Assembly (NCBI GenBank): GCA_016930175.1
Contig: JAFGHJ010000003.1
Coordinates: forward strand, 62,001 to 126,000
Direction: 5' to 3'
DNA from: Caldifarciminota bacterium
GTDB lineage: Bacteria; Hydrothermota; UBA3072
Length of the DNA: 64,000 nt
In this document: positions 17,213-22,869 of the stretch, in pieces
Position numbering within the stretch: position 1 is the stretch's first letter
Layout: each line of letters begins with the position of its first letter
Made by a program: the position numbers and the translations under genes
The notes under the pieces: model-generated
What the model was told of the DNA's origin: nothing
Databases searched by the model: none
The model's input: only the letters and a program-made list of their open reading frames with translations

Positions 17213-17992
17213 ATGAAAACATTTAAAAATCTTTTTTTCGTTTCGTTATTAGTTTTTCTTTCCGGCTGCAGCGTGAATAAAACCCAGATCGAACAGGAAA
17301 CTTTACCTCCCGCAGTTCCAGGCGGCACGTCATACGGTGAAACAGAAGATACCGCAAAAGTTGATGCGATTACGGGAGCGACAAAAGCAGAGATGAAAAT
17401 TGTGGCTTTAGCCGGTGCGTCATACGGTGGAATTGTTCATAACCGTGAAATGGCGGGGATAAGCGGTTTTTCGGATATCGATGCCATTACCGGAGCGACA
17501 AAATTGGCTTATAATGCAGGGATTCATTCTATTTTGAAAGGGCATGGGCGTACAGTCGAAATAGGCCTTGATTATATAAAAGTCAACAAGTCTATAGAAT
17601 ATGATATGCCTTCTTTTTCAGTTAACGGAACAAGAAGTTTTGAAGCTCATCAAATTCGATTACCTTTAACATATAATTTCGGATTTTTTAAAAATAAGGT
17701 GGATCAAGCCAGATTTGTTTTTAAAATAGGTCTATCTCCGGGTTATACCTTCAGTAAAACAATAGAAGATTCCGAAGGTTCGGAAAATATGCCGGATTAC
17801 GAGTTTTCCAGTTGGGATGTGTGTGGAAATTTTGGATTTTATTACTATCCTTTCAATTTCAAACAGGATTACAGGATGGGATTTTATCTCGATTTTTGCC
17901 GCGGACTAAAGGCATATAACGATATTTACCACGAATCATGGACGCAAGGCGGGAATGCCCTTATGAATTTCGGCGTCGTCTTCGAACCTTAA
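17213..17992 (+). CDS. lipoprotein with two DAITGAT flavinylation-like motifs and a small beta-barrel-like C-terminal part
   Basis: lipobox FLSGCS; VDAITGATK at 17363-17383 (motif) and IDAITGATK at 17480-17500; amphipathic beta-rich C-terminal part. Confidence 0.75.
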   Translation: MKTFKNLFFVSLLVFLSGCSVNKTQIEQETLPPAVPGGTSYGETEDTAKVDAITGATKAEMKIVALAGASYGGIVHNREMAGISGFSDIDAITGATKLAYNAGIHSILKGHGRTVEIGLDYIKVNKSIEYDMPSFSVNGTRSFEAHQIRLPLTYNFGFFKNKVDQARFVFKIGLSPGYTFSKTIEDSEGSENMPDYEFSSWDVCGNFGFYYYPFNFKQDYRMGFYLDFCRGLKAYNDIYHESWTQGGNALMNFGVVFEP

Positions 17993-19348: not shown

Positions 19349-20920
19349 TTACTGTTTTACCATTTTTGTGGCACCTGACAGAGCATCTATATTAACCGTT
19401 GAATCGAATTTTGCCTGGACGGCCGCTTTATGGGCAGCCCTTATAAGATTCCAGTGACTGACCTTTACGGGTCCATTGATCAATTCCGGAACGTTATAGT
19501 TCATTATATATGTTTCATAGAATTCCGGGTTTTTTTGAGGCATTAAAAACGACTTATGCGCATTCCCCAGTGTATCGACGTAACTAAAATATAATCTTGA
19601 ACAGAGTCCGTCTCTCCTTTTACTGGCGAACACGAACCACCGGCTGTTGCTCGACCAGCTATGAAAACTTTCGCTGTGTTCGCTATTGATATCAAGTTTC
19701 CGGTACTTCTTTGTCTTTAGTTCCAACATATAAAGGTCACTCGACGGATAATGTATGGAAAAATAACCGCAATCACTCATACAGAATAATAGATATTTAC
19801 CATCCGGAGAAGTTCTTGGGAAAGAAACGCTCTTCCCTGTTTCTCTTGAACTGAGAATTGTTTCTACGTCGTCCCAGCGATTAGTTTCAACATCATAACC
19901 GATGCGCATAAGATCATATTTTGATAGATTGTATTCTTTCTTGCTTACCCGTTCAGGCCCGCTGCAGAAATACAAATACTTACCATCGGGACTCCAATTA
20001 GGCAGATTCTCCATTCGCTTTGTTGAAACTTTCGGCGATGTTGTTACTGTATTCTTTTGTATGTCGTAGACAACCAGGTCGGAAGCCAGATCCCATACAA
20101 AAATACTCTTATCTTTCCCCGCGTGAAAAGACTGAACTACTTTATTAACTGAAAAGGCGATATGATTCCCATCAGGATGCCAGGCAGGATAAACGCCCGC
20201 AGACATTGTATATTCTGTTCCGGTGTTTACTTTATTCAATTGTCCGTTTTTAAGTAGCATCGTACCGCCATATTTGTCCCTCATGTGAAACATCATAGTT
20301 TCCGGATTGTTATTAGAAAAAGAATGACAATTCATGCAGTTCTGACCGACCGGTCTATTAGTGAAGATGGCGGATTCATCGAAATTTTCGATATTACGCT
20401 GATAAATACCCATTTCCCGCCACAATACATATCCCAGGTTTATCAACCGGTAAGCAACGTGACTGTCAATTTCCTCTTTAGCAATTTTGTTTTCTATGGT
20501 CCGAAACTTATTCCACCTGTTATTATGATCCTTTATATATATAGAGATATTCAGTTCCTCGCCTCGATTTTCCGACAAAATCTCTTTCCATTTTTTTATG
20601 GGAATCATCACAATTTTTTTATTGGCGTTTAAACGAATACGATCACTGTCTTTATTATTAACATGAATATCGATATAGAATTCCGTTCCTTCCTCATTAA
20701 TCTTAAAATTCAAAGGGGCTATGTTGGGAGGTATGACAATACCTGTATAGTCAGGATCTATATTCGGTAGACGGTCGATTTCCGTATAGTCCCCGGGAAC
20801 TACCTTTCCGCAATTTTGTAAGCATAAGACAATAAAAATAACTCCCAAAAAAGCGTTACTTATGGATTTATAAAATAACCTCATCGATCTTTTTCCTCTT
20901 TTATTCAAGTTCTGTTTCAT
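19349..20920 (-). CDS. PD40/TolB-like propeller protein with CxxCH site and C-terminal DALSGAT motif
   Basis: PVGQNCMNCHSFSNNNPETMMFHMRDKYGG; repeated SPDGKYLLFCMSD-type blades; C-terminus TVNIDALSGATKMVKQ; lipoprotein-like LQNCGK. Confidence 0.8.
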   Translation of the reverse strand: MKQNLNKRGKRSMRLFYKSISNAFLGVIFIVLCLQNCGKVVPGDYTEIDRLPNIDPDYTGIVIPPNIAPLNFKINEEGTEFYIDIHVNNKDSDRIRLNANKKIVMIPIKKWKEILSENRGEELNISIYIKDHNNRWNKFRTIENKIAKEEIDSHVAYRLINLGYVLWREMGIYQRNIENFDESAIFTNRPVGQNCMNCHSFSNNNPETMMFHMRDKYGGTMLLKNGQLNKVNTGTEYTMSAGVYPAWHPDGNHIAFSVNKVVQSFHAGKDKSIFVWDLASDLVVYDIQKNTVTTSPKVSTKRMENLPNWSPDGKYLYFCSGPERVSKKEYNLSKYDLMRIGYDVETNRWDDVETILSSRETGKSVSFPRTSPDGKYLLFCMSDCGYFSIHYPSSDLYMLELKTKKYRKLDINSEHSESFHSWSSNSRWFVFASKRRDGLCSRLYFSYVDTLGNAHKSFLMPQKNPEFYETYIMNYNVPELINGPVKVSHWNLIRAAHKAAVQAKFDSTVNIDALSGATKMVKQ

Positions 20921-22769
20921 CTGGTTTAATATAAAGTGAATAATACCAATATGTATTATAGAATCCTTTCTTTAGAGCTTCTTTTGCTTGTGCTTTATCT
21001 GCGAATGAAGAAAGAATACTATTGAACTGGTCGAATTGTTCAACTGTCTGCTGATCAATACTATAGTCAATGGTAAAATCTATTGATGGGTATGCGAGCC
21101 TACTTACTAATATTGCTTCTTCTATATGGTGCGGATATTTTCCATAGTCTAATTCTTTAAATTGACCGAGATATTCCAGCAAATCCTCTAACCTAAATTC
21201 AAGCAAATAATATGCCATTAAATATTCAAAAGCCATTTTGTTGTTTTTGTTTTCCTTTAATAGTTCAATTAAATCCATATCCGCCCTTTCGCCGATGGAA
21301 ATAAAAAAATCGAATTTCGGGGTGAATTGAAGTTTCGATTGGATTAAACTATCGGATTTTATTAATGACTCATTAAAAAGATAGTTCCTGTAATGCTTAA
21401 CCCACTTTTTATGCAAGATACTCTTGTTGAGGATATCCAGGAATTTTTTTGCGATGTCATATTCTTCGTTGATGATGTTGGTCATAATAATTCTTTTTAG
21501 CATTCTTGGATTATATCCGAAGTGTGTTTGCGCCTCATAAGCCATAACTTGTGCCGCTTTTATATGCCCTAAATCAAAGTATATGTCACTGGTGATTATT
21601 GCCACTGGCCTGGGTACTCCTTCAAGAAATAAAACATCCTTCCCTACGATTTGAGGATAGTCGAATAGATTATCAAGTAATTGACCTGTATGATATAATG
21701 CTCTATTTACATTAAAGATTATCTGAACAGTAAAATCATCCATTCCCCGGGAAACACTCAAAAGCTCCTCCCACCTGCCCTGTTCCGCAAGATAATCGAT
21801 CTGAACCTTCTTTTTTTCTCGCCATTCGAAAGAAAATCTTAGTATTAAGAGAGAAGCAAGTAAAATAAAAATCGATTCCATTAAAGTATCAAATATTCCT
21901 TTCCATGAACTATTTCGTTTCTTAATCTTTCGTTTTTTAGTTTTTCGTTTCTTAACCTTTCTTTCTCTAATCTCAGCTTTGATATATTTTAAATAAACGA
22001 AAAGGGCTATTTGTAGCACCGGAGGTGTAAGGAAAAACAAATAAAAATATAAGTTCAGGTTATAATTGAAAGGCCAGTTATGGAATCCACGGGGTACAAT
22101 GTAAAGAAATGCCTCTTTAAGATTAATCATAAACAAATACCGCGACGCAATATATGCGTATATAAAATATATTGCTACATTTAGCCCTGCATAAATATAT
22201 TTTCTCCGCTCTTCCCGTAAAAGTAATTCGTGCAACGTACAAAGCACGATGTAAAATAAATATGCCCATCCACCCAGAATATAATAAATTAAAGCGGATA
22301 GAGGAATAAAAAATATTTTATGACGATGTGGAATCTTTACATAAGAAAAGAAAAAAATAAGAGCCAAAAAATATTTAAAAGTTATTAACAGGGGAAAATC
22401 ATAATCGTTTTGTATAATTAACAAGAAAATAACAGGCAGAAAAGAAATAATCAAAGAATATTCGGAATGTTCGATTTTTTCGATAAGTTTGTAAACAATA
22501 ATGAGAATAGAGAGGGAAACAGCCGCAATTACTAAGGCTCCAAGCAGATTAAAATAGAAAAACTGCAAAAAAAACTGAGTTATCAACTCTGCCGGACCTC
22601 CGGGATACAATAGAAATTCTTTCAGGTAAATTTTATAGAAGAGAAACATAGGCTGGTGGTGATGATAGTACAGGGATGAATCAAAAACTAAAAGATAATA
22701 GAAAAATAAAAACAAAAAGAAAGTTATAAAAGAAAAATTTGGATTACGGATAATTTCTTTTATTTTCAT
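20901..22769 (-). CDS. multi-pass membrane protein, DUF6057-like, with helical-repeat C-terminal region
   Basis: about ten hydrophobic segments then a soluble TPR-like part; second Met at 22769 has gagga SD; overlaps the downstream cytochrome-like gene. Confidence 0.65.
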   Translation of the reverse strand: MKIKEIIRNPNFSFITFFLFLFFYYLLVFDSSLYYHHHQPMFLFYKIYLKEFLLYPGGPAELITQFFLQFFYFNLLGALVIAAVSLSILIIVYKLIEKIEHSEYSLIISFLPVIFLLIIQNDYDFPLLITFKYFLALIFFFSYVKIPHRHKIFFIPLSALIYYILGGWAYLFYIVLCTLHELLLREERRKYIYAGLNVAIYFIYAYIASRYLFMINLKEAFLYIVPRGFHNWPFNYNLNLYFYLFFLTPPVLQIALFVYLKYIKAEIRERKVKKRKTKKRKIKKRNSSWKGIFDTLMESIFILLASLLILRFSFEWREKKKVQIDYLAEQGRWEELLSVSRGMDDFTVQIIFNVNRALYHTGQLLDNLFDYPQIVGKDVLFLEGVPRPVAIITSDIYFDLGHIKAAQVMAYEAQTHFGYNPRMLKRIIMTNIINEEYDIAKKFLDILNKSILHKKWVKHYRNYLFNESLIKSDSLIQSKLQFTPKFDFFISIGERADMDLIELLKENKNNKMAFEYLMAYYLLEFRLEDLLEYLGQFKELDYGKYPHHIEEAILVSRLAYPSIDFTIDYSIDQQTVEQFDQFNSILSSFADKAQAKEALKKGFYNTYWYYSLYIKPDETELE

Positions 22770-22869
22770 AAATTCCTCAATCATTAGAAATTAAAAAAGA
22801 GTATGCGTTTAGTCAATCCCCCCCAATGGAGTAATCGGCTGTCAGCTTACGGCTTACGGCTAAAACCAA

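Follow-up and report, generated by a model that had tools for sequence, protein, structure and literature searches.

A PD40 beta-propeller protein encoded on the minus strand at 19349..20920 of the window, the whole 64,000-nucleotide stretch of Caldifarciminota bacterium DNA analysed here, combines one CxxCH motif with a C-terminal flavinylation-type tag (523-aa ORF). The tag is not a chance match, and we think it probable that ApbE attaches FMN to the tail of this protein, which would then act as a membrane-anchored haem-c propeller electron carrier. With slightly more reserve, we also favour the broader reading that a domain-free flavin tag was gained once by a haem-c propeller lipoprotein with DUF6057 as its partner, resulting in a two-cofactor envelope carrier with FMN on a short tail and in a new class of ApbE substrate, which would occur in Bacteroidota and, beyond this phylum, in at least one genus. 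In the proposed mechanism the beta-propeller body of the exported, membrane-anchored protein would hold one covalent haem c at the CxxCH motif, and ApbE (FAD:protein FMN transferase) would put FMN on T518 of the DALSGAT motif. The tail FMN might then pass electrons to or from the haem and a donor or acceptor in the membrane, which would link the envelope to a redox pool, with Rnf as one candidate in this genome; the electron flow, its direction and the identity of the redox partner are what we infer here.

Architecture of the window protein

A start at Met13 (codon starting at 20884, minus strand) is a plausible alternative to the start of the open reading frame; the coding sequence then no longer overlaps with the gene upstream. 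A hydrophobic stretch is followed by a lipobox-like LQNC (residues 34-37; 20810..20821, minus strand), a probable lipid anchor on the non-cytoplasmic side. Cys37 is kept in at least 90% of the 99 aligned homologues, a helix spans residues 11-34 in the AF2 model, and the protein is predicted to be exported on account of this lipobox-type cysteine. A conserved N-terminal domain lies between the lipobox and the CxxCH motif, and the PD40 propeller blades cover about residues 243-448 (19577..20194, minus strand), as indicated by PF07676, by the strands of the AF2 model and by propeller folds in the PDB. The match to the Pfam profile PF07676 (E 6.7e-20, 3 stretches) reaches 71 bits against a cut-off of 20.9 and bears out the propeller-like blades that had been noticed in the sequence-only reading. 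The designation TolB-like used there describes a resemblance between propellers only and not membership of the TolB family, since the curated TolB models score 36.8 and 39.2 bits, far under their cut-offs of 343 and 405. The AF2 model, built from the 99 homologues, has a mean pLDDT of 93.7, and a fold search with the window protein returned propellers in the PDB, including cytochrome cd1 nitrite reductase at a low TM-score.

Conservation of the C-terminal tag

The window protein ends in ...FDSTVNIDALSGATKMVKQ with DALSGATKMVKQ as its final 12 residues, and the DALSGAT motif (residues 512-518; 19367..19387, minus strand) lies exactly where it had been claimed and fits the published ApbE motif D-x-x-[ST]-G-A-[ST] (PMC12052999). 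This minimal motif was defined experimentally and its seven residues suffice; engineered flavin tags perform best at N- or C-termini, and in motif mutants an exchange of Asp to Ala had a minor effect, while Gly to Ala about halved flavinylation (PMC12052999). The predicted FMN-bearing residue is T518 (19367-19369, minus strand). A lead-in to the tag, AKFDSTVNI (residues 503-511; 19388..19414, minus strand), is conserved together with it as FDxxVD[IV]. An FMN_bind domain (PF04205) was found neither in the window protein (P0001) at E 1 nor in four other tagged proteins, even at E 10.

Our homologue set comprises 99 distinct sequences: those of the congeneric genome G127, the two additional copies of the own genome and those from Bacteroidota. 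The strict pattern D..[ST]GA[TS] occurs within the last 40 amino acids of 20 of these 99 sequences, compared with a shuffling expectation of 0.005, and 24/99 carry the tag once SAT, AGAT and N variants are counted. Departures from the motif include DALAGAT in two members and NALSGAT in one. Among 425 unrelated ORFs from the same loci, none has the strict motif in its last 30 residues. The tail consensus of the tagged homologues reads FDxxVDIDALSGAT(R/K); the tag columns from D to T hold about 4 bits each and the next column falls to 1.9. Furthermore, the tag residues are fixed in fifteen sequences whose codons differ at nearly every synonymous site, which shows that the tag is under purifying selection. 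A missing or decayed extension in the nearest relatives had been named as the outcome that would speak against the tag, and the reverse was found: the orthologue in G127 is identical at 16/17 positions of the 17-residue tail FDSTVNIDALSGATKMV, compared with 6/20 in the preceding linker and 65% over the whole protein (68% by the aligner's count).

A paralogue in the own genome ends in DAVTSAT, and the RnfG of this genome, its sole FMN_bind protein and a classical type of ApbE substrate, carries DAITSAT with the same TSAT variant. The third copy (L009:5893-7329, contig C35) ends in VPVDMAITGATPKKENRE, in which TGAT is kept and the Asp is off by one residue (DMAITGAT), so that this copy may work poorly or differently as a substrate. 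At its start there is no clear Met ahead of the anchor.

Origin and distribution of the tag

In a homologue tree computed with the tail columns left out, every tagged row falls inside one 32-row clade (SH-aLRT 100). The same clade also holds eight rows that are untagged or have a shifted motif only, and the 67 rows outside it are all untagged. This is best read as one gain of the tag and about four losses, the simplest scenario, although change counts alone cannot separate gain from loss. No hidden tag behind a frameshift was found downstream of untagged clade members in any frame, and some genomes (e.g. G944, G931 and G148) contain tagged as well as untagged copies. We also looked for body residues that change together with the tag: T293 follows the tag in an average of 3.3 out of 4 independent pairs and hardly ever changes in the opposite sense, an association that stays short of significance because there are only four pairs.

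The protein family has no match in 145 of 147 sampled genomes of the own phylum and is common in parts of Bacteroidota, where 49 out of a sample of 393 genomes of one order contain PD40/CxxCH homologues. Therefore, it is likely that the family of the window gene was acquired by transfer from Bacteroidota.

The DUF6057 membrane protein as conserved partner

As its conserved partner the tagged protein has a DUF6057 membrane protein, whose gene is located directly upstream of the window gene (20901..22784, minus strand; PF19529, E 8.1e-113). It encodes a multi-spanning protein with a C-terminal helical-repeat domain (AF2 pLDDT 91.1), and nearly every homologue, whether it has the tag or not, lies next to a DUF6057 gene. 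The pair of DUF6057 and PD40 genes recurs in annotated Parabacteroides records, and the Bacteroidota protein of P. distasonis (WP_121955947.1) belongs to the same family and has the same neighbour, but its tag is absent. DUF6057 was also considered as a haem b electron-transfer protein and dismissed, as it has no conserved His; a fold search gave weak TPR-like matches only, none of them at E 0.001. In many genomes a chorismatase-like gene (FkbO/Hyg5, RidA-fold) lies near the pair of DUF6057 and PD40/CxxCH genes, with or without the tag (e.g. L009:9143-10330, L011:6416-7603 and L094:347-1519).

ApbE and the proposed flavinylation of the tail

The own genome encodes a single apbE (C35:65215-65925). 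It shares contig C35 with the two paralogues, following the nearer of them at a distance of about 8 kb, and is not adjacent to the window gene, which lies on a different contig; at other tagged loci, too, apbE is usually not a neighbour of the tagged gene. A co-occurrence of tag and ApbE had been proposed as a check, with a mixed outcome: ApbE is encoded in 15 of 17 tagged genomes, but also in 36 of 40 untagged ones, so that the co-occurrence is compatible with flavinylation and, as weak evidence, hardly discriminates. Both tagged genomes without ApbE, G931 and G940, are fragmented assemblies. In G931 the single contig of 3.5 Mb was put together by linking short pieces with stretches of 100 N (L089, L183, L184), so that neither the order of genes across a join nor the absence of a gene can be relied on. 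The nqrF frame of this genome breaks at an N-join where relatives have apbE, and in several relatives apbE is located about 3 kb from an FMN_bind gene. Due to this fragmentation the lack of ApbE in G931 is uninformative as a counterexample. The G940 assembly is split into at least 434 contigs, and its tagged gene runs off the end of one of them. A linkage to Rnf suggested by G931, where the tagged pair seems to be located directly upstream of an rnf operon, was discarded, because a 100-N join lies between them (L089 9728-9827).

In two untagged clade members, G226 and G187, neither ApbE nor FMN_bind was found. This is the expected pattern, with the limit that both proteins sit near each other on the tree and that a single loss may account for the two cases. 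The tagged genome G857 (L101) has ApbE and no FMN_bind protein at E 0.1; provided that its assembly has no gaps here, ApbE could have the tagged propeller as a main substrate in this organism.

The sequence-only reading had left room for a second use of the D-x-x-S/T-G-A-T sequence as an alternative to flavin attachment. The tail could, for example, be a docking or sorting peptide that is read by a factor other than ApbE, such as DUF6057 or an envelope partner, with a convergent match to the motif. Such a peptide would fit with the conservation that reaches upstream of the minimal motif (FDxxVDI), with the unspecific co-occurrence of ApbE and with apbE genes that are usually not beside the tagged genes. 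The AF2 model, too, orders the tail (pLDDT 97 for residues 501-510 and 88 for 511-520), as if it packed on the body. However, the best-conserved core corresponds exactly to the seven residues of the ApbE motif. The substitutions observed (T to S, G to S, D to N) are mostly of types that also occur, or do little harm, in ApbE substrates. Untagged members have DUF6057 as well, the untagged clade members G226 and G187 are without ApbE, and a similar C-terminal motif is found in 0/425 unrelated ORFs. We regard a docking peptide as unlikely and flavinylation by ApbE as the more probable reading.

The putative haem c site

CMNCH (residues 195-199; 20324..20338, minus strand) is a putative covalent haem c site and is located as claimed, with NCMNCH at residues 194-199. 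Each of the 99 homologues has exactly one CxxCH, in which C195, C198 and H199 are invariant. No cytochrome c domain profile from Pfam or NCBIfam matched the window protein and the motif sits in a beta-strand of the AF2 model, so that haem binding rests on the motif together with indirect context. This context includes a cytochrome c assembly gene (ResB/CcsA) directly after the third copy in the own genome and a ResB/CcsA gene near a copy in G127 too, which indirectly supports haem attachment.

It is conceivable that ApbE flavinylates the tail while the CxxCH motif carries no haem and instead binds another metal or forms a disulfide, in which case the protein would be a flavoprotein only. The strand position outside any cytochrome c fold in the model and the missing cytochrome Pfam match point in this direction, as does H248, which was rejected as distal haem ligand because only 83% of the tagged members have it. 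Against this, the two cysteines and the histidine do not vary in 99/99 exported proteins, H212 is conserved in 100% of the tagged members, and ResB/CcsA genes accompany copies in two genomes. A haem-free protein appears about as improbable to us as a docking peptide. A reading that combines haem and flavin within this single protein is well grounded in the conservation of the tail in the orthologue, the paralogue and the Bacteroidota clade.

The DAITGAT lipoprotein at 17213

An exported lipoprotein is encoded on the other strand within 4 kb of the window gene (17213..17992, plus strand) and bears two DAITGAT motifs (17363-17383 and 17480-17500) ahead of a barrel-like region, in agreement with the sequence-only reading, which had combined the two proteins into an extracytoplasmic heme-flavin redox pair. 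Only the first half of this idea survives: heme and flavin are plausible within the window protein alone, but the pairing of two proteins finds no support in the distribution of the lipoprotein. It has no match in the congener G127, which keeps the tagged gene. Its sole relative in the phylum sample is 29% identical over the barrel-like part and is without the motif, and no other genome of this sample has the lipoprotein with the motif. Export, motif and a distance of less than 4 kb are what the two proteins share; the genes lie on opposite strands with an unrelated gene between them, and a dedicated redox pair is in our view very improbable. The lipoprotein, in which FMN_bind matches below threshold only, is possibly a separate ApbE substrate of the own genome.

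Comparison with known systems

The FMN_bind (PF04205) substrates NqrC, RnfG, NosR and PceC are, like the window protein, exported, carry the same motif and have ApbE available in the genome. In contrast to them, the window protein is without FMN_bind and has the motif alone at the extreme C-terminus. Substrates free of FMN_bind already appear in flavinylation surveys, namely DUF2271 and DUF3570 (PMC8238504) as well as Flavodoxin_4 and FMN_red (PMC11334425), so the tagged propeller would add to a known kind of ApbE substrate. FMN_red, with motifs on a C-terminal extension, and Flavodoxin_4, with a motif insertion, also represent a motif added to an existing fold, but these folds already bind flavin non-covalently (PMC11334425), whereas the window protein has a propeller body that bears a haem motif and for which no flavin site is known. 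DUF2271 and DUF3570 are exported and flavinylated outside FMN_bind, which is predicted for the window protein; they are unrelated families and are located in apbE gene clusters, unlike the window gene (PMC8238504). The engineered Flavin-tag (Tong et al. 2021, via PMC12052999) is described as a seven-residue motif that is sufficient and works best at a protein end. It is a laboratory construct, whereas in the window protein the arrangement occurs naturally and has been conserved in evolution. Cytochrome cd1 nitrite reductase (NirS), retrieved by the fold search, also combines haem c, putative in the window protein, with a beta-propeller. At a TM-score of about 0.3, with no separate cytochrome c domain and no evidence of haem d1 in the window protein, this is a generic propeller similarity.

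Neither of the two main flavinylation surveys mentions PD40 in its main text. In the open-licence literature we found nothing on DUF6057 or on PD40 plus CXXCH in Bacteroidetes, and no published description of such a haem-flavin electron carrier. If our reading is true, ApbE flavinylation reaches proteins that are invisible to FMN_bind profile searches, and the bare terminal tag built by protein engineers is also in use in nature. It would also provide a first functional handle on the uncharacterised pair of DUF6057 and PD40/CxxCH genes.

Motif matches elsewhere in the genome

A seven-residue motif can arise by chance somewhere in a genome, and the motif DNA pattern indeed has 14 matches in the own genome, several of them in wrong frames or unrelated proteins; for the tail itself chance is refuted by the shuffling result and the unrelated ORFs; the single clade, the tail identity and the synonymous variation speak against it as well, and its probability is negligible. 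One of the loci with the motif, L144 (C47:73879-73898), encodes an exported-looking protein of 376 aa from stop to stop with an internal DAVSGAT, which possibly arose by chance; this protein bears a C-terminal sorting-type domain.
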